Below are positions 8,515 through 25,749 of a DNA stretch of 25,749 nucleotides, piece by piece. The position numbers and the translations under genes were made by a program. The stretch's first letter is position 1. The number at the start of each line of letters is the position of its first letter. This DNA comes from a virus. The DNA is taken from positions 1 through 25,749 of IMG/VR virus record IMGVR_UViG_3300023245_000097; one strand, given 5' to 3'. Below the pieces are notes generated by a model that saw only the letters and a program-made list of their open reading frames with translations, was not told the DNA's origin and made no database searches.

Positions 8515-9333
8515 TTAGTAATATTTGAATTCTTTGAAGAACCAAGCGTAGTTATCTTTGATCCAATCACTCGTATGTGGTCCAAGAACTTTGTGATAAT
8601 CGTTGGTAACTTGCTCGACTCTTGTTCTGATTGTGTGATCTCCGTAGATGCCATATACTGAATCGTCTTCTTTAGTTATTTGTTTTATATTGTCAAAATC
8701 GTGTTCGTATTCCTCCACTCCTAAATGTTTGTATATCTTAGTCATTTCGGAACGAGGATCTTTCGTCAGATCTTCAAATCGTACAAAGTGAACTTTCTCC
8801 TTTGTGCCATCTAAGATCATCTGTTTCAATCTTTCAATTGCCATTCCTACAGGCTGACTGTTTGCCCAAGTATCAATCCGCTTCTCAGTAGTTGTACCCT
8901 TCATCTCCGAGTGGTTTACTAAGCCACTATCCTTATCCTGTGAATTTCTAAAGTTCTTTTCCATAGAAGCAAAGACAGCCCGGAGATCTCTTACAACACA
9001 TATAATTTTAGGTTCAGGATAGAATGAATTTAGAAATCCATAATGTACACCCCAACCTCTACTCTTATCGACTACATATCGCTTATCAGTAACGCCTTCA
9101 AAAAATCCCTTTAATCCAGCATTACAGAATGAAATCCAACCAGCTTTCATACGATCAGGATTCTGAGCTTTAAATTCTGGTGAATTTGTATAATTGCCAC
9201 GAGCAGCATATAGAAGTTCTAATACACCAGAAGTAGGAGTAACATAAAATTCTGGGTTCTGTCCAATAATATTTTGTAAAAGTGTTGAGCCACTTCTTGG
9301 AAGTGAACTCTGAAAGAAAATCTTTTCAGTCAT
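8515..9333 (-). CDS. sulfotransferase (PAPS-dependent)
   Basis: 272 residues. The N-terminus FFQSSLPRSGSTLLQNIIGQ (residues ~6-25) is the 5'-phosphosulfate-binding loop of sulfotransferases, with the PRSGST core at residues 12-17. A second motif, IICVVRDLRAVFASMEKNF, matches the 3'-phosphate-binding strand and helix with conserved Arg and Ser. Near the end, VHFVRFEDLTKDP is also typical of the fold. The family moves sulfate from PAPS to hydroxyls of sugars, proteins or small molecules. It has no signal peptide, so it acts in the cytoplasm, and the phage would rely on host PAPS. Its start overlaps the stop of the glycosyltransferase gene by 1 base, which implies they work together, most likely on a glycan of the fibre or the host surface. 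The substrate is inference. Confidence 0.85.
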   Translation of the reverse strand: MTEKIFFQSSLPRSGSTLLQNIIGQNPEFYVTPTSGVLELLYAARGNYTNSPEFKAQNPDRMKAGWISFCNAGLKGFFEGVTDKRYVVDKSRGWGVHYGFLNSFYPEPKIICVVRDLRAVFASMEKNFRNSQDKDSGLVNHSEMKGTTTEKRIDTWANSQPVGMAIERLKQMILDGTKEKVHFVRFEDLTKDPRSEMTKIYKHLGVEEYEHDFDNIKQITKEDDSVYGIYGDHTIRTRVEQVTNDYHKVLGPHTSDWIKDNYAWFFKEFKYY

Positions 9334-10704: not shown

Positions 10705-13233
10705 TTAAATTAATACGATCGTAAGTTCACATTCATTATCATTGTAGTATATGGTTCCAACTGGATGTGTTGCTGAAGTTAATACTCCTGCATTTCTACA
10801 GAAGTCTTTAATATTCAAGCAGTTTACATGAGTAGTACATGCTGACACTGTGGTAATACACTCCCCTACAATATGAGCAGTACTACAAGTTGCACAATTA
10901 TTACATCCTCCAGAAATAGAAGTATAGTCTGCAGTAATAACATTGTTACACCCTCCAGCAATTACAGATGCTATAGAATTACTACATATTTCATTATTAT
11001 GTCCACCGCCAATGGTTGAATAGCAGCTTGCTATTGTATTGCTACGCCCTCCACCAATAAATGAGTATGGCGCAGTTTCAATAGTTGTATTATTAGACCC
11101 ACCTACAACTGACGTATGGGAGCTACCTGCTATGTTTTCTTTACCACCTAAAATGCTAGAGTAGTCCTGAATAGTACAGTTACTACTCCCACCACCTATG
11201 ATCGACACATTACCAGTTGCGGTATTCAAACATCCCCCAGCAATAACCGTTGCATAGCCTGATGCTGTATTAATTTCCCCACCTCCAACCGTGGCACTAT
11301 TACCTAAAGCTGTATTTGTATTACCACCACCTATTGTTGATTGATAGCCTGATGCTGTATTAATTTTCCCACCGCCAACCGTGGCACTATTACTTGAAGC
11401 TATATTCCCATAACCCCCACCAATTGTTGCATAATACTTTGTCACATTATTTCCCGAACCACCACCAATTGTTGAGCTATTACCTAAAGCTGTATTACTT
11501 TTACCACCACCTATTGTTGAGAAATTCTGTGTCACATTATTTCCCGTACCACCACTTATTGTTGTGCTATCACCTGATGCTGTATTTGTATTACCACCAC
11601 CAACTGTTGAGTTATTACCTAAAGCTATATTCCCATAACCCCCACTTATAGTTGCGCAATTGCCAACTGTACAATTACTACCACCACCACCTATTGTTGA
11701 TTGATAGCCTGATGCTGTATTAATTTTCCCACCGCCAACCGTGGCACTATTACCTGAAGCTTCATTAGAATAACCCCCACCAATTGTTGCATAATACTCT
11801 GTCACATTATTTCCCGTACCACCACTTATTGTTGTGCTATCACCTGATGCTGTATTTGTATTACCACCACCAACTGTTGAGTTATTACCTAAAGCTATAT
11901 TCCCATAACCCCCACTTATAGTTGAGTAAGTACCCTTAGATGCTTCATTATTACAACCACCACCTACTGCTGCATAGTGAGCTACTATTACATTATTACA
12001 ACCACCACCAATAGAAGATGCAATACCAGTAATAGAATTACAATAACCACCACTAACTGTTGATTCGTTGCCTGCAATTATATTTTCTCTACCTCCACCA
12101 ATAGATGAACGAAACCCAGATACACTGTTATCTCTCCCTCCACTAATAGTCGTGGAACACTCTGATGCTGTATTATTTCTCCCACCACCTATTGTAGAAT
12201 ATTGTCCTGATGCTGTATTATTTCTCCCACCACTAACTGTTGCAAAATCTATAGTTGAACTATTACTACATCCACCACTTACTACTGAACAATTTCCATC
12301 TGTCGTATTATTAGTTCCTCCACTTAATGTTGAATAATCTCCTACTGAGGGAGTATTTCCAATTCTGTGAGTTGAGCCTATACCGCTATTGTCATCAAAT
12401 AATACATTAGCACCTACGATAGTTGACGGATCAACTGGTTGGTATTCACTTGAACCTGCTACCCATTGTAGAATATACCCGTTTGCGTTACCTGTAAGAT
12501 CTACATCTATTAAATCGTCAATGGTTGGATTTCCACCATTAATATTTGCTAACTCAATAGCCGATTCATTTAACGAATATTCAATATTATCCTGGAGTGT
12601 TGTGCTTACTGATAGAATTGTACTTCCAGTATTTACAGCAGTAAATCCCCTAAGCTGTATATTTACACCATTCATTCCAGCGTAAACATCTTCATGAGTA
12701 CCTATGCCAATATTTTCTCCTCTGTTAGCTTCTCCTACAGAACCTAAACTATCAATTCGAACACTTTGACTATTTATATCATGTAAGATTGCAATTCCTG
12801 ATCCAGCCACAAGTTTAAGTGTATCATTAGGATTAGATGATTCGATAAGTGCATTTAAACCTCCGTTCCAAACTGCAGGAACAGTACTGTTAATTAGAAA
12901 TTTCCCAAATGAATCAGCACCTAGAACATTCAAATCTCCAGTTCCAATTCCACCGATAAGATCCCATTCATGTATAAGGAACACTCCCTGTGTAGTTCTC
13001 CTATTAGCTCTCCACCAAACTAAATGCTGTTCTCCGTCATTCCCAGTTGGAGTAACTTGCCCGGTTGCTGGTTCTACTTCTACGGGATGATAGACAATAT
13101 TTCCTTCTTCGTAAATGCGGCGGTCAATCCAAGGATTAGCTACCATTCTGAAGTTAGTGTCTACTTCTCCATTGAACAACTCTCGTTGCTCTTGAGTTCT
13201 AAATAAGATATATTCTTGGAGATTGAATGTCAT
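10705..13233 (-). CDS. tail fibre with YadA-like head repeats
   Basis: 842 residues. The N-terminal ~295 residues are unique and contain a short Trp-rich region (LVWWRANRRTTQGVFL) and predicted structural domains. Residues ~297-785 are made of ~14-residue repeats of the form [S/T]-[I/V]-[S/G]-G-G-x-x-N-x-[A/V]-x-[G/A/S]-x-x-[S/A]-x, typical of trimeric autotransporter adhesin head repeats that fold as a left-handed beta-roll. The last ~55 residues are distinct (HVNCLNIKDFCRNAG, HPVGTIYYNDNECELTIVLI) and probably form a tip or trimerisation end. The repeats contain many Cys (for example GGCSN, GGGCNN, CNNCATCST), which is unusual for a secreted beta-roll. Two long perfect DNA duplications lie inside the gene. 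A receptor-binding fibre is the likely role. Confidence 0.82.
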   Translation of the reverse strand: MTFNLQEYILFRTQEQRELFNGEVDTNFRMVANPWIDRRIYEEGNIVYHPVEVEPATGQVTPTGNDGEQHLVWWRANRRTTQGVFLIHEWDLIGGIGTGDLNVLGADSFGKFLINSTVPAVWNGGLNALIESSNPNDTLKLVAGSGIAILHDINSQSVRIDSLGSVGEANRGENIGIGTHEDVYAGMNGVNIQLRGFTAVNTGSTILSVSTTLQDNIEYSLNESAIELANINGGNPTIDDLIDVDLTGNANGYILQWVAGSSEYQPVDPSTIVGANVLFDDNSGIGSTHRIGNTPSVGDYSTLSGGTNNTTDGNCSVVSGGCSNSSTIDFATVSGGRNNTASGQYSTIGGGRNNTASECSTTISGGRDNSVSGFRSSIGGGRENIIAGNESTVSGGYCNSITGIASSIGGGCNNVIVAHYAAVGGGCNNEASKGTYSTISGGYGNIALGNNSTVGGGNTNTASGDSTTISGGTGNNVTEYYATIGGGYSNEASGNSATVGGGKINTASGYQSTIGGGGSNCTVGNCATISGGYGNIALGNNSTVGGGNTNTASGDSTTISGGTGNNVTQNFSTIGGGKSNTALGNSSTIGGGSGNNVTKYYATIGGGYGNIASSNSATVGGGKINTASGYQSTIGGGNTNTALGNSATVGGGEINTASGYATVIAGGCLNTATGNVSIIGGGSSNCTIQDYSSILGGKENIAGSSHTSVVGGSNNTTIETAPYSFIGGGRSNTIASCYSTIGGGHNNEICSNSIASVIAGGCNNVITADYTSISGGCNNCATCSTAHIVGECITTVSACTTHVNCLNIKDFCRNAGVLTSATHPVGTIYYNDNECELTIVLI
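11323..11393. repeat. 71-bp direct repeat in fibre gene, copy 1
   Basis: Identical to 11683-11753, an offset of 360 bases. The repeat lies in the beta-roll coding part and keeps the reading frame, as 360 is a multiple of three. It is the kind of repeat that lets the fibre lengthen or shorten by recombination. Confidence 0.8.
11530..11654. repeat. 125-bp perfect direct repeat in fibre gene, copy 1
   Basis: Perfect match to 11800-11924 with a 270-base offset, which equals 90 codons. It encodes several complete head repeats. A perfect match over 125 bases suggests recent duplication or gene conversion, since synonymous positions have not drifted. Confidence 0.85.
11683..11753. repeat. 71-bp direct repeat in fibre gene, copy 2
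   Basis: Second copy of the 71-base sequence at 11323-11393. Neighbouring sequence also shows partial similarity, consistent with nested duplications. Confidence 0.8.
11800..11924. repeat. 125-bp perfect direct repeat in fibre gene, copy 2
   Basis: Second copy of 11530-11654. The identity stops where the two sequences diverge at GTTGC versus GTTGA. Confidence 0.85.
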
Positions 13234-19401: not shown

Positions 19402-19698
19402 ATGAAACAAACGTCATCTACAAAAATTCCATTATTTGAAGAATTTCAAGTAGCAGGGTTTGGTCCAGCTAATCAAACTGTATCATATTCTACCGGTGGG
19501 AGTACACCAACTACAGGATATAGTATGCAGCCTATTGTAGGCCAAGTAAACGAAGTATGTGAATCTGCTACAAACGAAGCGTGTTCATATGAAGACAATG
19601 AAAACCCAGAACATAATGGAGATAGTTATATTGTAGAAGCTAAGAAATATGTCTGTGATAAGATAGACGAATCATACAAAAAGAAAAAGACATGGTAA
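19402..19698 (+). CDS. small protein with FEEF motif near N-terminus
   Basis: 98 residues. It starts MKQTSSTKIPLFEEFQVAGF, then has a Gly/Ser/Thr-rich segment (VSYSTGGSTPTTGYSMQPIV) and an acidic C-terminus with Cys (VCESATNEACSYEDNENPEH, AKKYVCDKIDESYKKKKTW). The LFEEF core is shared with several genes here, though this one lacks the following L-x-E site. It starts the plus-strand operon. The composition recalls small internal or core head proteins of T4-like phages, but that is inference. Confidence 0.55.
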   Translation: MKQTSSTKIPLFEEFQVAGFGPANQTVSYSTGGSTPTTGYSMQPIVGQVNEVCESATNEACSYEDNENPEHNGDSYIVEAKKYVCDKIDESYKKKKTW

Positions 19699-19943
19699 AC
19701 TTACCAGCGTTTGAAGAATTTAATAATCTGAATGAATCAGATGGCTTCGATCCTAAAGATGCGTCAATGCGGCTTAAGAGTAAAGCAGCAGATAACATTC
19801 GTAGATATAGAGTTGCACAAGAGAAAGGTGATAACTATGCTATTAAGAGATATGAACTTCTGCTACAACTTGATACGGTAGAAGAGAAAGGACTTAAGAT
19901 TAAAACTGAGCTCCACCGCCTAAAAGAAAAATTCAAAAAATGA
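19692..19943 (+). CDS. small helical protein with capsid-targeting-like leader
   Basis: 83 residues. The leader LPAFEEFNNLNESDGFDPKD has the FEEF core followed by L-N-E-S, matching the pattern cleaved in T4 internal proteins (hydrophobic-x-E then a small residue; T4 has EFIAE-A). The rest is a charged helical body (RLKSKAADNIRRYRVAQEKG, TELHRLKEKFKK). It overlaps the previous gene by 7 bases. A role as a head-packaged protein is plausible and inferred from the leader. Confidence 0.55.
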   Translation: MVNLPAFEEFNNLNESDGFDPKDASMRLKSKAADNIRRYRVAQEKGDNYAIKRYELLLQLDTVEEKGLKIKTELHRLKEKFKK

Positions 19944-20170
19944 CCGACAAGCAACAATCAGAGTTAGATCGTATCAGACACTACACTGGAACTGTCAAAG
20001 ACTTTAAAAGCTTTTGGGATGAACAAGCAGGTGGAGAAACTAACGCATTCGGTACTCCTGAAAAGCAAGGCTATGAAATTCATCCAACGAGAGATGATGT
20101 AGATAGTGACCATTGGAAAGACATTAAAACAAATGAAGGCTTTCTTCCAATGTTCGAAGATTTTAGGTAA
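19940..20170 (+). CDS. small unknown protein with C-terminal FEDF
   Basis: 76 residues. It contains GTVKDFKSFWDEQAGG and ends NEGFLPMFEDFR just before TAA. The LPMFEDF end echoes the LPAFEEF leader of the gene before it, but at the C-terminus. It overlaps the previous gene as ATGA. It ends 2 bases from the stop of the convergent transglycosylase gene, with no visible terminator between. Function unknown. Confidence 0.5.
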   Translation: MTDKQQSELDRIRHYTGTVKDFKSFWDEQAGGETNAFGTPEKQGYEIHPTRDDVDSDHWKDIKTNEGFLPMFEDFR

Positions 20171-20172
20171 CT

Positions 20173-20697
20173 CTAAAGGTTGTTTTCAGCATGTGCTATA
20201 ATCTTAGCCCAATACTTAACAGTCTTATTTCGAGTGTAACCTTTAGGTCCACCATTCCAATTCCTAGCCATCTTTTCAAATGAACTCTGTTTATGATAAG
20301 CATCAGCCCAAACATTAAACATCTCAATTGAACTATTCCTATCAAAACGATCCTTCATTGTGTACCTCAGTTTTAAACCTGATCGCTTGAGTATCCGATT
20401 TACTTCTCTGACCATAATAGGTCTAATCTGCATACAGCCAACAGAAGGTTCATCAAGATGAGTATCACCTACTGCTTTAGGATTGCCAGTGCTTTCAATA
20501 TGAATAATCGCAGAGATTAGTTCTTCCCTACTATTGATCCGACCGTTCTTATTAGAGCGAAGCTCTATAGGATCTTTAACAGTAGACTGTTCAATTTTCT
20601 CTTTAGTGCAATGTGTAATATTTGCATTCGAGGTTTCATTTGTAGGTGACCCGAGAAGCAACATAGCGCTAAGAGAAGATATTAGAATACTTCTCAT
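20173..20697 (-). CDS. secreted lytic transglycosylase
   Basis: 174 residues. The N-terminus RSILISSLSAMLLLGSPTNE is a signal peptide, probably cut near residue 25. The SLT-like core has AIIHIESTGNPKAVGD with catalytic Glu at residue 68, then PSVGCMQIRPIMVREVNRI and ARNWNGGPKGYTRNKTVKYW, the usual closing segment of phage transglycosylases. It cleaves peptidoglycan glycan strands in the periplasm. With the signal peptide it may act at lysis without a holin-released endolysin, or locally. Its gene is convergent with the plus-strand operon. Confidence 0.82.
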   Translation of the reverse strand: MRSILISSLSAMLLLGSPTNETSNANITHCTKEKIEQSTVKDPIELRSNKNGRINSREELISAIIHIESTGNPKAVGDTHLDEPSVGCMQIRPIMVREVNRILKRSGLKLRYTMKDRFDRNSSIEMFNVWADAYHKQSSFEKMARNWNGGPKGYTRNKTVKYWAKIIAHAENNL

Positions 20698-20706
20698 ATA
20701 ATATTT

Positions 20707-20937
20707 TTAGTCTACTAATTCCAAGATATTAGCCTTAATTCTTAGGCTGTAGTTACGATCTTTAAGCATGACCCAATATTCGTCTTTCGACCCAACACGA
20801 ATTACCTCACCGAAACAAACTTTATCTCGTAGTACTGGTAGGATATTCCCATCTCTGTCTGTCTTTCCCTCTGGGTGTGGTACTGGATGCATTTTTGCAA
20901 CCCACGTAACTTTCGCACCATCTGCTAATTTTTTCAT
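20707..20937 (-). CDS. unknown small beta-rich protein
   Basis: 76 residues (MKKLADGAKVTWVAKMHPVP, then VLRDKVCFGEVIRVGSKDEY). The pattern of short strands with WVMLKDRNYSLRIKANILEL looks like a KOW/SH3-type small barrel. No signal or membrane segment. It is 9 bases upstream of the transglycosylase gene and probably co-transcribed. Confidence 0.5.
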   Translation of the reverse strand: MKKLADGAKVTWVAKMHPVPHPEGKTDRDGNILPVLRDKVCFGEVIRVGSKDEYWVMLKDRNYSLRIKANILELVD

Positions 20938-20993
20938 ATTCCTTGAATTTATTTGTTTCAGTTTAAATATACCAATAATGCTGTAAGTTTGAA

Positions 20994-21614
20994 CTATCCT
21001 ACATATAAGATAGTTGGGTTGTTCTTCTGAATATCAACCTCAGGAAATTGCTTTTTGAAGGTCATTGGGTTGAACGAAGGTGTGATTAAGTGAACACCAT
21101 TCTTTGTTTCAACGACATGAACTGTAAGATCCTTTCCAGCTTCTTGAAGTAATAATTCAACTTTCTGACGAATTGCAACTAAGACGTCTAATTGCTTGTC
21201 TTTGTTACTTCCGTAATCTGCCCAATCAATATCAAGAATCCATTTACGATGTGGTTCATTAGAATGTGCACCACAAGTACTTTCGTATGCCTTACGGACT
21301 GAACGGAAATCTCGGTTCATAATCTGATCTGTGATTTTCTTAAGTGTGTTGAATGCTATCTTTTCAAAAGAACGACGGTTCAAGTTGATGTAAGCACGGG
21401 CACTATGAAAATCACAGAGGTGAACAATTTCTCCTCGTTTCATTTTAAGGTACTCAGCAGAACTGATGTAGTATGTCTTAATGACAAGTGAATTGCTACC
21501 AAGATCTAGATGCTCCTTCTTACGCTTTAAAATCTGAAGGTGATAGAAATCATCCTCTGAGTCAAAGACAAGCATCGACTTAATCTGTTCAAAATTATCT
21601 ACTTCATTTCTCAT
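20994..21614 (-). CDS. possible AEP/primase-like protein
   Basis: 206 residues from the ATG at 21612-21614, which has an AAAGGA ribosome site 7 bases upstream; a TTG at 21647 would add 11 residues and has no such site. KWILDIDWADYG (residues ~124-135) gives a D-x-D pair at the end of a hydrophobic strand. VHVVETKNGVHLITPSFNP (~165-183) is like the second AEP motif, in which a Thr/Ser-x-x-G-x-H segment follows. A third catalytic Asp is not obvious. The N-terminal part (CDFHSARAYINLNRRSFEKI) is basic. The archaeo-eukaryotic primase/polymerase fold fits the pattern, but this is by eye only. It could instead be an inactive relative or a nucleic-acid-binding protein. Confidence 0.45.
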   Translation of the reverse strand: MRNEVDNFEQIKSMLVFDSEDDFYHLQILKRKKEHLDLGSNSLVIKTYYISSAEYLKMKRGEIVHLCDFHSARAYINLNRRSFEKIAFNTLKKITDQIMNRDFRSVRKAYESTCGAHSNEPHRKWILDIDWADYGSNKDKQLDVLVAIRQKVELLLQEAGKDLTVHVVETKNGVHLITPSFNPMTFKKQFPEVDIQKNNPTILYVG

Positions 21615-21692
21615 CTTAATATCCTTTGGGTTGTTTAAAGTCGCCAATCATTCTGTTAACTATTTCAGTGTCTCCTGGTAAATAGAGTTAAG

Positions 21693-21914
21693 TCATCTGT
21701 ATGAAATTTTAACGCTATGTACTTGTCTGATGAAAACTAAACTATCTGGATTACGCCGAGCTCCAGTTTCAATGTCAATCATTAAAAAACCAAAAGTAGG
21801 TCCATTGATACACAGCCATAACCGACTTTGCCGATCTAAGAAATATGCACCACATTTAAGTTCTACTTTCACAGGATCTGTTTCACCTGGCAATAGCTTG
21901 ACGACTGTTTCCAT
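21693..21914 (-). CDS. unknown small beta-rich protein
   Basis: 73 residues (METVVKLLPGETDPVKVELK). It contains CGAYFLDRQSRLWLCINGPT and a middle of short strands, ending VHSVKISYR. The fold looks like a small beta-barrel. On the minus strand, TTTGTC followed 11 bases later by TTATATT lies ~65 bases upstream, similar to the ligase and SWIM upstream regions. No family is recognised. Confidence 0.5.
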   Translation of the reverse strand: METVVKLLPGETDPVKVELKCGAYFLDRQSRLWLCINGPTFGFLMIDIETGARRNPDSLVFIRQVHSVKISYR

Positions 21915-22015
21915 CTAATGAATTATAACAAATGATTTCATTTTAGTTGATAAATTGAATAAGTCTTACATTTACTTTATCAATATAACAAATTAAATTG
22001 ACAAACCTTTGAACT

Positions 22016-22250
22016 TTATGAGATAGTATGAGCTTCTTTAATGTTCTCAATTTGAATTGGGTTGATCCACCCACCAAAACTCGGTGAGCTTTCAATCTCA
22101 ATTAGTTCATCATAAGAATCTTGTTGCCCAATCTGATAATGAATGTTAACAATTTTTATATTCGTAGTAACAGCGTTAAGATCATCTTTACTTTCAGTCC
22201 TTGTCGGAACGTTCCTTCAATTTATCTTTAAACCAGTCTTCGTTTGCCAT
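22016..22250 (-). pseudogene. small gene with apparent +1 frameshift
   Basis: The ATG at 22248-22250 opens MANEDWFKDKLKERSDKD and hits TGA at 22194-22196. Skipping one base at that stop gives a continuous protein-like frame (ESKDDLNAVTTNIKIVNIHY, then EIESSPSFGGWINPIQIENI) to a TAA at 22016-22018. That second part has no start codon of its own. The total length of 235 bases is one more than a multiple of three. The joined protein would be 77 residues. The break may be a real mutation, a recoding site or a sequence error. It starts 2 bases after the stop of the previous gene. Confidence 0.5.
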
Positions 22251-22252
22251 GA

Positions 22253-22471
22253 TTACTTAGTTACTTCCATTGTTTCATAAACACCTTCTTCATTAAATAT
22301 TTTCATCCAAGTCGTAAGAAGTTGTGATGCAGCTTTCTTGCTTATACCAAACTCACGCTCAATGTATACGCCTGCTCCAAACATGTTCGTAATACCATCA
22401 TTTCTTAAATCGTTAAGAAACAAGAATACTTCCTGATCATCTTTACTAATTTTAATTATTTCCGTTACCAT
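22253..22471 (-). CDS. small conserved phage-type protein
   Basis: 72 residues. FLNDLRNDGITNMFGAGVYI, then EREFGISKKAASQLLTTWMK. The pattern L-R-x-x-G-x-x-N-M-F-G-A followed by a helix with a Leu/Trp-Met end is one I recall from many phage hypothetical proteins. The second half resembles a helix-turn-helix. Function is unknown. The upstream sequence has GTTATATT, as other candidate promoters here do. Confidence 0.6.
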   Translation of the reverse strand: MVTEIIKISKDDQEVFLFLNDLRNDGITNMFGAGVYIEREFGISKKAASQLLTTWMKIFNEEGVYETMEVTK

Positions 22472-22623
22472 CTGTTGTAGTTTAATTACAATACAATATA
22501 ACTATAAAATACTTACCATGAAAATATTTATGACATTATTATGAATAGTCCATTAAATGAATATAGAATCTTGGAAATATCAAGATATTTTCTACATTAA
22601 TAAAGATTGAATCTAATATAGTG

Positions 22624-22782
22624 TCATCTGTAGTAGTATGTAGCTACTCTAATGGCTTCATTTATAGTTTTGAATAATTCTTCTTTCACGCCAGCGTAGA
22701 ACTTAATATGAACATCATGCATTTCATCAATTGCACTACTGTTTACTTTTCTTAGAATGCTAAAGTAAGTTATGACGTTCAT
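22624..22782 (-). CDS. small unknown protein
   Basis: 52 residues (MNVITYFSILRKVNSSAIDE, then VHIKFYAGVKEELFKTINEA). Its ATG overlaps the upstream stop as ATGA. It is mostly helical. After its stop, ATCTTG and CAAGAT (22568-22586) form a weak hairpin that might end the transcript. Confidence 0.45.
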   Translation of the reverse strand: MNVITYFSILRKVNSSAIDEMHDVHIKFYAGVKEELFKTINEAIRVATYYYR

Positions 22783-22967
22783 TTGCTTCTTTCATTTATG
22801 TCTGAATGAATCGTGGCTATTTGGTCATTTAATACATCATTAGATAATCTTCGTACTAAATCAACAATAGCTTTTTCATTCTCTTTATTTAGGATGATCT
22901 GTTTAAGTGGATCAATAACGATATGAAATACCAACCCAGTAATGTCATACCTGTGATTTTTGCTCAT
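22779..22967 (-). CDS. small unknown protein
   Basis: 62 residues (MSKNHRYDITGLVFHIVIDP, then a helical region with NEKAIVDLVRRLSNDVLNDQ). No membrane segment or motif. It is followed by the 52-residue gene through an ATGA overlap. Its own start lies on an ATGA overlap with a possible broken upstream ORF. Confidence 0.5.
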   Translation of the reverse strand: MSKNHRYDITGLVFHIVIDPLKQIILNKENEKAIVDLVRRLSNDVLNDQIATIHSDINERSK

Positions 22968-23059
22968 TCTAATATTTTAACAATTTCTACTACAGCGTTT
23001 GAAGAAATTTACTCATTTATGGTTACTACTCTCTTCGTCCATATTGCAGAGTAGATCAT
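22964..23059 (-). pseudogene. possible small ORF with in-frame TAA
   Basis: ATG at 23057-23059 opens MIYSAIWTKRVVTINE, then TAA (23009-23011), then in the same frame ISSNAVVEIVKILE to TGA, which forms an ATGA overlap with the next gene. The overlap suggests that the end of the frame is real, but the second part is only 14 codons, so chance is possible. Confidence 0.25.
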
Positions 23060-23112
23060 ACTAGCATTGAGCTGTTATTAAGTTCATAAATACAGTAAAG
23101 AACCAATCATAT

Positions 23113-23271
23113 TTAGATACAGCTAAGTATGGATATTTCATATACTAATTCTGGTATATACTCAAAGGCATCTGGCAAATCTTGAGATATGCGTCTAATG
23201 AAATCTTTTTCATAGTTCATTAACCCACTCTGCCATAGTGTGTACTCAATATCAACAGTAACTCTGTTCAT
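23113..23271 (-). CDS. small unknown protein
   Basis: 52 residues (MNRVTVDIEYTLWQSGLMNY, then EKDFIRRISQDLPDAFEYIP). Mixed strand and helix, acidic end. It lies alone between two gaps of ~70 and ~50 bases. No family is recognised. Confidence 0.45.
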   Translation of the reverse strand: MNRVTVDIEYTLWQSGLMNYEKDFIRRISQDLPDAFEYIPELVYEISILSCI

Positions 23272-23343
23272 TTTAAATTGATTGGTACATTCTTAGTATC
23301 AAGATAATGCCCAGACACATTCTAATCAGCTCAACAGCTTATA

Positions 23344-23520
23344 TTAGTCATTCCCAGTAAAAAATAAAATGTACAGAATTACAGGCCAACCTATGACCCA
23401 AAGTAATCTATGAAAATTATTTAGACCTAAGCCACCAGAAATCATTGCAACTACGTCAATAGAGAGGCTTACTAAACAGCCTATGAATAAGTAACCGATT
23501 ATAATTTGTGCTAGGTCCAT
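23344..23520 (-). CDS. small two-span membrane protein
   Basis: 58 residues with two hydrophobic helices: ~5-28 (QIIIGYLFIGCLVSLSIDV) and ~38-55 (LLWVIGWPVILYILFF), separated by a Gly-rich loop (AMISGGLGLNNFH). Ends with TGND. Its ATG lies soon after the terminator at 23566-23593, so it begins a new transcript. Role unknown; a small inner-membrane protein. Confidence 0.55.
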   Translation of the reverse strand: MDLAQIIIGYLFIGCLVSLSIDVVAMISGGLGLNNFHRLLWVIGWPVILYILFFTGND

Positions 23521-23565
23521 CAGATTAAATATAACATAAATAAACTAAAGTAGAAACTTAAGAAA

Positions 23566-23593
23566 AATAAAGTCACTATATAGCGACTTTATT
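23566..23593 (-). terminator. Rho-independent terminator
   Basis: On the minus strand, AATAAAGTC pairs with GACTTTATT around a 10-base loop that can pair a little further, and is followed by TTTC. It lies 22 bases after the stop of the gene ending at 23615 and closes the AAA+ gene unit. Confidence 0.7.
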
Positions 23594-23614
23594 AAATGTA
23601 TGTTGACTTAATAT

Positions 23615-23951
23615 CTAATACTGTTCCCTTATCTCCTTGTCTTTAATTGCATCAAACAATTCTGCTTTTGTAAGCTGGTGTTCTCCTCCTCCACTATGTG
23701 GGGATGCGTCTTCCCAAGTATAAAAATTATCTTTAAATCCAGTGTACTGCCATTCACCGTTCCACGCGTCCATCCCTGGATCGTATAGCACATACTTTTC
23801 ACCATCAGTCAAATCCTCTACGCGAGTAACTAGTGAACCGACGTCATGTTTAGATAACCATTTTTGGATAAAGTTTCTTACCTTTATATTTAGACTCGTT
23901 GAGAGTTTTTGACCCTACTAAAAACTCTTTAAATGTTGGTACGTTTTTCAT
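23615..23951 (-). pseudogene. leader-bearing gene with apparent +1 frameshift
   Basis: The ATG at 23949-23951 opens MKNVPTFKEFLVGSKTLNES then KYKGKKLYPKMVI and TAA. In the +1 frame the sequence continues as a convincing protein (VRNFIQKWLSKHDVGSLVTR, YVLYDPGMDAWNGEWQYTGF, SPHSGGGEHQLTKAELFDAI) to TAG at 23615-23617. That frame has stops just upstream of the join and no ATG. The span of 337 bases is one more than a multiple of three. A joined protein would be ~111 residues. The TFKEF...LNE-S leader matches those of the AAA+ ATPase and the 83-residue protein. It follows the AAA+ stop by 10 bases. The conserved Trp/Gly-rich body has no family I can name. Confidence 0.6.
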
Positions 23952-23961
23952 ATTTTTTTGT

Positions 23962-25329
23962 TTATAGATATCTCTTAGCCATTCGTTGCCAATTGCCAAG
24001 TCCAGCAACTTTGAAACCTGCTGCCTTAACAAATGTTCTCATCGAAACATCTTTAGCTGATTTCATAAATTCATAGATTTCTTCTTTATCTGCAAGTGGC
24101 ATATCTACTGGATCCAAATGTGGAAGTAGAACTTTTAATCTCTCCATCAAAGTTGCATCGTCTGGATTAACATCGACAAGAATAGACCTTGAGCGAATTG
24201 CTCCGTCTGGGTCAATCTTTTGCTTACTAAGATTTGAGATAAAAATAACTCTACCAGAAAAGTCAAATCTATTTGGAATTAATCCACTCTCTACAGCATT
24301 GAACTCTCCCTCTGGATCATTATCATAATCTTTTGGATCATACAGCATTTTAAGTTTCTTCATATAAGAAACTTTTCTGATCTTCTTAGTATCGAGTGCT
24401 GTCTTAAGAATGTTACGACCATCTTCGTTTGAGAATACAGCGTCACAATCATCAAATACTAGAACTTTAGTTTTAAACTGATACATCACTTTGTACATCA
24501 TGATAGTCGATACAGCTCCAGAGATTTTCATCCAATCATCACCTTCAACTAATCCTTCATCTGCCATTGCTCGGTCAACACTATAAGTCTTACCAGTTCC
24601 AGCTCTTCCTGAAATAAGCAAACTGTTAAATGCACCTGCAGCTACTGCTCTACTTATATCATAGATGTCATTCATAGTTTCTTCTAGGAACAACACTTTA
24701 TCATCAAGTGTTTCTTCGTTCCTCTTAACAGTAGGGTCAGATTTTTCGATCATTACTTCTCCTCTCTTAATCTTAAGGATTTGTCCGTACGGAATACCAA
24801 TCTCAACCGCAATCTTCTTACCAGATTCACCATTAGCTAACTTCTGACCAATTATACGAATCTCGTCTGGTGTAAGAGATTTTCTACCTTCATACAGCTC
24901 ACCCTCAAACAGTGCACTTTCGTTCATAGCTTCTTTCGCGTACTTCTTATCTTTAATCAGCTTAGCAAATTCGCCAACTAATTGTATAATTGGAAACTCT
25001 TCACTAGTAATACTGAAGGTAGCTTTAGTGTCATAGAATTGTTCGAACCAATCTAACTGCCCAACAATTCCAGGTCCTCTTTCTGTGCCCCTTCCACTTA
25101 CACGAAATGCAGTGTCATTTTTATTACTATAGAACATAATACCAGGAACTCCGTTATAATACGTAAGGAATGGGAACTTTTTAAAATCACCACCAACTTT
25201 CCTATTAATATAACTCCCAATAAGCTCAGCAGCTTTGTTTAATTTTGGCTCTCCCATTATCCCAGTGGTTCCAGCCATAATGCCCTCAGATAACATGTTA
25301 AATTCTTCGAAAGAATTAATTCTTTTCAT
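23962..25329 (-). CDS. AAA+ ATPase with HTH segment and capsid-targeting-like leader
   Basis: 455 residues. The leader KRINSFEEFNMLSEG (residues 2-16) has F-E-E-F and then L-S-E-G, like a T4 internal-protein processing site. Residues ~20-130 are an unknown beta-rich domain. Residues ~152-192 (LTPDEIRIIGQKLANGESGK, then IAVEIGIPYGQILKIKRGE) look like a helix-turn-helix. The ATPase has Walker A GRAGTGKT at 241-248 and Walker B VLVFDDCDAVF at 289-299, plus FSGRVIFISNLSKQKIDPDG (sensor 1 region, Asn) and AIRSRSILVDVNPDD (Arg finger region). A C-terminal helical lid follows. The ATPase part resembles single-domain helicase/loader or clamp-loader-like phage proteins. The role is unknown; the leader suggests head packaging. 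Confidence 0.8.
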   Translation of the reverse strand: MKRINSFEEFNMLSEGIMAGTTGIMGEPKLNKAAELIGSYINRKVGGDFKKFPFLTYYNGVPGIMFYSNKNDTAFRVSGRGTERGPGIVGQLDWFEQFYDTKATFSITSEEFPIIQLVGEFAKLIKDKKYAKEAMNESALFEGELYEGRKSLTPDEIRIIGQKLANGESGKKIAVEIGIPYGQILKIKRGEVMIEKSDPTVKRNEETLDDKVLFLEETMNDIYDISRAVAAGAFNSLLISGRAGTGKTYSVDRAMADEGLVEGDDWMKISGAVSTIMMYKVMYQFKTKVLVFDDCDAVFSNEDGRNILKTALDTKKIRKVSYMKKLKMLYDPKDYDNDPEGEFNAVESGLIPNRFDFSGRVIFISNLSKQKIDPDGAIRSRSILVDVNPDDATLMERLKVLLPHLDPVDMPLADKEEIYEFMKSAKDVSMRTFVKAAGFKVAGLGNWQRMAKRYL

Positions 25330-25340
25330 TTATATTGATT

Positions 25341-25357
25341 GTTTATTAGTTTATATA
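25341..25357 (-). promoter_or_regulatory. candidate late promoter box of AAA+ gene
   Basis: On the minus strand this reads TATATAAACTAATAAAC, 11 bases before the ATG at 25329. It shares both the TATATA and AATAAAC parts with the boxes at 6134-6150 and 13916-13931. It overlaps the end of the small ORF upstream. Confidence 0.35.
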
Positions 25358-25482
25358 TTAGTATTACTCTGTGTACCTTTAAAACCAATCTTAATAAAAT
25401 CTCCCGCCTCTGCCTGATGTAGTCCCTTTATGTAATCTTCACCTTCATTTATAAACTACGAGTATGTTTTAAAGTTTTTCAT
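25351..25482 (-). pseudogene. small leader-bearing ORF interrupted by amber codon
   Basis: The ATG at 25480-25482 opens MKNFKTYS, then TAG (25456-25458), then the same frame goes on FINEGEDYIKGLHQAEAGDF and IKIGFKGTQSNTNI to TAA. Put together, MKNFKTYS-x-FINE-G matches the T4 capsid-targeting leader (MKTYQEFIAE-A) if the TAG replaced GAG or CAG. Total 43 codons. It looks like a small internal-protein gene inactivated by a nonsense mutation or made through readthrough. TAG is an ordinary stop for other genes in the window. Confidence 0.5.
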
Positions 25483-25568
25483 ATTATTAGTATCAGATAG
25501 TATATCAATCCCAATAATGAGGGACTTTCTGCACCTCTTCCTCACTATCCAATCCTCCGGCTTCCGGG

Positions 25569-25652
25569 CCTCTATTGACCTGCCTCTATTGACCTGCCTC
25601 TATTGACCTGCCTCTATTGACCTGCCTCTATTGACCTGCCTCTATTGACCAA
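25569..25652. repeat. 14-bp tandem array, six copies
   Basis: Five exact copies of CCTCTATTGACCTG and a sixth ending in AA, followed by a partial ATTGACCAA. The unit is not a multiple of three, and stops recur in every frame on both strands, so it is not coding. It is more GC-rich than the rest of the window. Confidence 0.9.
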
Positions 25653-25691: not shown

Positions 25692-25749
25692 CTAGTTATA
25701 CTGCTCTGCTAGTTATACTGCTCTGCTAGTTATACTGCTCTGCTAGTTA
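25692..25749. repeat. 17-bp tandem array at window edge
   Basis: Three exact copies of CTAGTTATACTGCTCTG and seven bases of a fourth, cut by the window end. The unit is not a multiple of three and contains stops in each frame. It may extend beyond the edge. Confidence 0.9.

Follow-up and report, generated by a model that had tools for sequence, protein, structure and literature searches.

The window analyzed here is the whole stretch of 25,749 nt that forms positions 1–25,749 of IMGVR_UViG_3300023245_000097. It is part of a T4-like phage, with bases 1–25622 identical to bases 45017–70638 of the 70.6-kb record IMGVR_UViG_3300023237_000012 (G001). Several of its genes start with, or come close to, a short leader resembling the capsid-targeting sequence (CTS) of the T4 internal proteins (IPs), in which two aromatic residues three apart are followed by hydrophobic-x-Glu. 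These genes and the elements within them are as follows, with ↓ marking a predicted cut:

19402–19698, + strand: 98-amino-acid neighbor of the 19692 gene; aromatic pair IPLFEEF, no LxE within reach.
19692–19736, + strand: CTS-like leader MVNLPAFEEFNNLNE↓SDG of the 19692 gene; predicted cut after Glu15.
19692–19943, + strand: leader-bearing 19692 gene, 83 amino acids, intact; mature part basic, probably helical, without a known family match.
19940–20170, + strand: third gene of this cluster, 76 amino acids; FKSFWDE near the start and LPMFEDFR at the C-terminus, both kept in the orthologue in record G002.
23615–23951, − strand: 23951 gene; the leader frame ends after 33 codons at 23850, and the other frame runs to 23615 (frame break).
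23895–23951, − strand: CTS-like leader MKNVPTFKEFLVGSKTLNE↓S of the 23951 gene.
23962–25329, − strand: AAA+ ATPase gene, 455 amino acids, intact; C-terminal part homologous to T4 NrdC.10 (phrog_1250).
24889–24891, − strand: predicted second cut of the AAA+ protein, after Glu147 (LYE↓G), between its N-terminal domain and its helix-turn-helix (HTH)-AAA+ part.
25285–25329, − strand: CTS-like leader MKRINSFEEFNMLSE↓GIM of the AAA+ gene; predicted cut after Glu15; kept in all distinct orthologues with a complete 5' end (31/31).
25351–25482, − strand: small open reading frame (ORF), MKNFKTYS-stop-FINE↓GEDY..., with an in-frame TAG at 25456–25458 inside the leader.

The initial annotation cited four leader genes in this region. 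Two of these, the 19692 gene and the AAA+ gene, are intact, and their leaders retain both the aromatic pair and the LxE; the other two are interrupted, the 23951 gene by its frame break and the 25482 ORF by the TAG, which had been read as a residue x in YSxFINE. Both interruptions are identical in the overlapping G001, which may not be independent evidence. Recoding of the 25482 ORF was considered and rejected: TAG serves this phage as a normal stop codon, terminating 9 of the 64 G001 genes of at least 80 amino acids, and the scanned records yielded no suppressor tRNA, so that this leader is interrupted rather than recoded. The second frame of the 23951 gene invites comparison by eye with a polyprotein module (modI), but this similarity is not significant. 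In G002, the orthologue of the 19692 gene keeps an aromatic pair and has an E-A junction (MEILNFNEFHLYE↓A), and that of the 98-residue neighbor has IPSFNDFLTE. The C-terminus of the 19940 product (LPMFEDFR, window 20141–20167) corresponds to LPKFSDFR in the G002 orthologue despite a very different protein middle, and a leader-like aromatic pair seems to be conserved there.

The leader was quantified in a wider set of eight related records, fetched whole or in part, whose 858 ORFs of at least 60 amino acids were grouped by homology beyond residue 45 into 402 clusters. A strict leader pattern lies near the N-terminus in 24 of these clusters, against a mean of 1.4 and a maximum of 6 in 500 shuffles, and occurs at 4.3% of N-termini compared with 0–0.7% at internal positions. 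The exact register of T4 IPIII, [FY]xx[FYW][ILVM]xE, is found in 25 of the 402 clusters, which are unrelated to each other, whereas 1000 shuffles give a mean of 1.7 and at most 8; of the 46 exact-register matches, 32 start at residue 7. The leader is thus real and beyond chance, and it is common to proteins whose mature parts are unrelated, as seen both from the 25 homology-separated clusters and from the unrelated Pfam families represented. Its usual form in the wider set is MKHIKLFEEFINE followed by Ala or Ser, with MKHIKLFEEFINEA as an example of the consensus type, and the two aromatic residues usually stand at positions 7 and 10, compared to 4 and 7 in T4. The four or more bearers originally proposed turn out to be an understatement, as a looser leader rule, itself with an evident background, selects 12 of the 84 ORFs of G001 and, in a 176-kb relative, 23 of 203 (18 of 246 in T4).

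Applied to 150 kb of T4 (246 ORFs), the exact-register rule recovers IPII, IPIII and gp61.1, together with one apparently false match (gp61.4). We note that T4 gp61.1 (gene 61.1, L113:18966–19130) starts with MKTFKEFIKE↓D, in the exact CTS register, and may be an overlooked T4 internal protein. In LR756500, LR756502 and Lak-A1, huge phages that were sampled over 50-kb stretches, only a few leaders were seen.

The inclusion of the AAA+ ATPase in the leader set, as originally proposed, is borne out by its orthologues. There are 35 distinct orthologues, 31 of them with a complete 5' end, and the leader is present in every one of these (30 by pattern and the variant L272 by eye). The C-terminal part matches phrog_1250, the family of T4 NrdC.10, with an E value of 1e-38 over residues 166–453 at about 26–30% identity, and the GRAGTGKT and FDD motifs are invariant or nearly so among 18 aligned orthologues. 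An LxE is present in the linker between the N-terminal domain and the HTH-AAA+ part in 35 of 35 distinct orthologues, and Glu147 is invariant in the 18 aligned sequences while the surrounding linker residues vary. Because the leader is kept wherever the start is complete, and because this LxE and Glu147 are conserved within a variable linker, we consider that the ATPase is probably cut twice, the second time after Glu147, separating the N-terminal domain from the HTH-AAA+ part. A fold search with the modeled ATPase (mean pLDDT 69, a modest confidence) returned only generic AAA+ matches at low TM-scores. The gene stands among other leader genes in record G003, and lies about 7 kb ahead of, and in the same direction as, the protease gene described below in G008, G015, G017 and G019. 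A leader-like start, MKIKKYQAFYE↓A, is also present on the NrdC.10 homologue of a 642-kb uncultured phage.

Processing of the kind envisaged in the initial annotation presupposes a gp21-like protease, and a Peptidase_S77 domain (T4 gp21 type) scores above the cut-off in 20 of 29 related records (14 of 20 in one set and 6 of 9 in another), with E values down to 1.9e-16; among these records are near-identical phages recovered from separate samples. The first ~170 residues of this protease align with T4 gp21, including the catalytic-motif His of LGEL(N/D)HP and Ser of SSR, and the remainder forms an extended scaffold-like tail in which [IV]AE[SAG] recurs. The gene order in these relatives is portal (assigned by position), a 112–127-amino-acid leader protein, protease-scaffold, and capsid, which is comparable to the T4 order 20-67-68-21-22-23. 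At 58 loci the gene directly before the protease could be compared: at 49 it carries the leader pattern, and at the remaining nine a near match in which Ile replaces the first Phe.

A long mosaic structure is seen in several leader proteins, with modules common to them and to the protease tail. A module of ~65 residues stands behind the leader in G002_55776 and recurs inside G015_99245 (1072 amino acids), inside G019_55346 (891 amino acids) and in the G008 protease tail; one of ~32 residues is shared by G019_55346 and the G015 protease tail; and one of ~80 residues directly follows the leaders of G001_122, G017_75644 and G019_55346. The module junctions are mostly LxE[AGSK] sites. When the 336 proteins of at least 250 amino acids are ranked by their excess of [LIVMF]xE[ASG], a protease-scaffold frame comes first (z 5.8) and mosaics and capsid proteins also rank near the top, as would be expected of substrates of a single LxE-cutting protease. 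Some substrates of the leader system look like polyproteins that would be cut at several sites.

The leader bearers also include recognizable enzymes, namely a protein with a PolyA_pol profile match (E 4e-34), which is a poly(A)/CCA-type polymerase, and one with a RimK-like ATP-grasp match (E 6e-37); a second ATP-grasp protein has a weak profile match. PHROG and Pfam searches of most of the small cargo candidates gave nothing or weak matches, and a PADLOC search of the cargo gave no match. The G001 43025–44044 product resembles an ADP-ribosyltransferase by eye (WRGM), a resemblance that no profile supports and that we do not claim. In G003, 21201–26989 (L084:1201–6989) is a cargo island of adjacent genes, most of them with CTS-like or FxxF-type starts and including AAA+ and RimK-like ATP-grasp genes.

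In T4, gp21 cuts after L/I-x-E, and residues 4 and 7 of IPIII govern targeting while residues 8 and 10 govern processing (PMC9026906). The leaders described here fit these rules and are therefore, by sequence, of CTS type. The likeness to the T4 CTS that was originally noted is strengthened by the exact register in the relatives, by their protease beside a leader-bearing gene, by the retention of leaders on orthologues, and by the modules common to the protease scaffold tail. Our preferred reading, to which we assign a probability of about 0.84, is that these phages have a T4-type capsid-targeting and cleavage system that is much enlarged and partly organized as polyproteins. Mechanistically, the two aromatic residues would probably bind the prohead scaffold core, and the [L/I/V]-x-E that follows them would probably be cut by the phage's gp21-type (Peptidase_S77) protease, freeing the mature protein inside the head; the leader proteins would then be present in the virion and be injected into the host. 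Such a system would serve dozens of unrelated proteins, among them the AAA+ ATPase, the poly(A)/CCA-type polymerase and the RimK-like ATP-grasp protein, as well as many others whose function is not known. Head targeting by the leader is well supported at the level of sequence, and delivery of the cargo at infection is suggested by analogy with the T4 IPs and Alt.

A number of observations weigh against this reading. Both intact leaders of the window depart from the exact T4 register, in that 2–6 additional residues separate the LxE from the second aromatic residue, although T4 IPI (MKTFKEFTSTTTPVSTITE) likewise has extra residues before its LxE, as do many variants of the small protein adjacent to the protease. 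Two of the four cited leader genes are broken, in many leaders the Glu is not followed by Ala, Ser or Gly, and no enrichment of a T4-type late promoter signal was found upstream of leader genes. While the ATPase orthologues keep the leader, as the comparison with homologues suggested in the initial annotation would have it, the NrdC.10 homologues of an E. coli T4-like phage and of Vibrio and Acinetobacter phages have a different start without it. Finally, no Peptidase_S77 protease was found on the window contig, on G001, or on a 78-kb sister record, all of which are fragments. A search for the protease of the window lineage through a close baseplate-region gene gave only two lineage records, neither of which has one.

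The strongest competing explanation, which we consider unlikely while taking it seriously, accepts that the leader targets the prohead core and holds that most bearers are scaffold or assembly parts, degraded or expelled at maturation, rather than cargo delivered to the host. The most constant leader bearer indeed stands at the gp67/gp68 position beside the protease, modules of leader proteins recur in the protease scaffold tail, and T4 gp22, gp67 and gp68 are cut to fragments (PMC9026906); the protein at the gp67/gp68 position and the scaffold modules may be core proteins of this kind, degraded and not injected. However, the bearers include clear enzymes (PolyA_pol, RimK-like ATP-grasp and AAA+) that would be unexpected in a scaffold, and they vary between relatives, as accessory genes do.

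It is considerably less probable that the N-terminal motif is an unrelated signal with no more than a likeness to the T4 one, such as a degradation tag or a helix that binds a membrane or a partner. Although short amphipathic helices are often found at N-termini, they would not explain the exact T4 spacing, the correctly placed LxE, or the invariant second LxE in the ATPase linker, nor why a leader gene constantly adjoins the S77 protease and why modules are held in common with the protease tail. Chance, by which AT-rich genomes would yield N-termini rich in F, Y, E, L and N that fit a loose pattern, is the least credible explanation of all: such patterns do have a background (17.8 clusters expected under the loosest rule, and the 18 of 246 ORFs selected in T4), yet the exact register exceeds shuffles ~15-fold and internal positions 9.5-fold, 32 of its 46 matches start at residue 7, and the leader is conserved in all complete-start ATPase orthologues, so that chance is already contradicted.

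The enlarged CTS system can be compared with several known ones. As in the gp21-processed CTSs of T4 IPI, IPII and IPIII (PMC9026906), the leader is N-terminal, has an aromatic pair three apart followed by hydrophobic-x-Glu, and precedes unrelated mature proteins, and in the relatives the gp21-family protease is likewise encoded between the portal and capsid genes. Unlike in T4, the first aromatic residue usually comes three positions later, each genome has many more bearers, these include members of known enzyme families, the protease is fused to a scaffold, and several bearers are multisite mosaics. In the giant phages phiKZ, 201phi2-1 and SPN3US (PMC9026906, PMC5694885), a gp21-related protease likewise cleaves a large set of head proteins after Glu, at several sites per propeptide; the cuts in those phages, however, follow S/A-x-E or A-x-E in mostly long, unshared propeptides, in contrast to the LxE and short shared leader seen here. 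The T4 NrdC.10 AAA+ family (phrog_1250) shares the C-terminal AAA+ part, whereas its T4, Vibrio and Acinetobacter members are leaderless. Phage polyvalent proteins (PMC5512222) are similarly multidomain and predicted to be packaged and injected, but the modules described here are split by predicted protease sites and are common to the protease scaffold tail, and we found no domain of the polyvalent type. It has been proposed before that T4-like phages may acquire various proteins by means of CTSs (PMC9026906). The CTS idea is known, and it is the scale, the enzymes, and the polyprotein modules common to the protease-scaffold frame that appear to be new; we found no report in the open-license literature, for related phages, of CTS use at such scale with enzymes and scaffold-shared modules.

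Further features concern the phage and its relatives more generally. The nearest capsid relatives belong to an uncultured huge phage (51%), to Prevotella Lak phages and to Tenacibaculum phage PTm1, a hint that the host may be a member of the Bacteroidota; Tenacibaculum phage PTm5 also has a related capsid. The contig ends in perfect tandem repeats of 14 and 17 bases (window 25568–25650 and 25692–25749), and G001 terminates within the first of these arrays; they may be a true assembly-breaking repeat or an assembly artefact. An 842-amino-acid protein at 10705–13233, with 45-base repeats (tandem arrays at 11258–11926) and a length of 1798 amino acids in G002, is probably a tail fibre, and matches a beta-roll ice-binding family weakly. 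A gene of the sulfotransferase family lies at 8515–9333 (PF13469, E 3e-22), and 25 tRNA genes form an array in the 176-kb relative (L077:15754–19979 and L078:1–166).

We consider it an even bet that a T4-like lineage, perhaps with Bacteroidota hosts, has turned the CTS into a general loading code, by which dozens of proteins per genome, among them enzymes, and polyproteins built of interchangeable modules, some of these also present in the protease scaffold tail, would be loaded into the head, cut at LxE and injected as a takeover kit. The leader allows likely head-borne proteins to be read from sequence in uncultured phages, whereas such proteins are otherwise known only through virion proteomics of a few cultured phages. 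The sharing of modules with the protease-scaffold frame suggests a route by which such cargo sets could grow. If injection is true, the leader would mark a large set of candidate first-minute effectors, including the ATPase, ATP-grasp and nucleotidyltransferase-type proteins and many of unknown function, and its presence on so many unrelated proteins suggests that the virus particles hold a large ready-made protein kit, with the ATPase among its parts.

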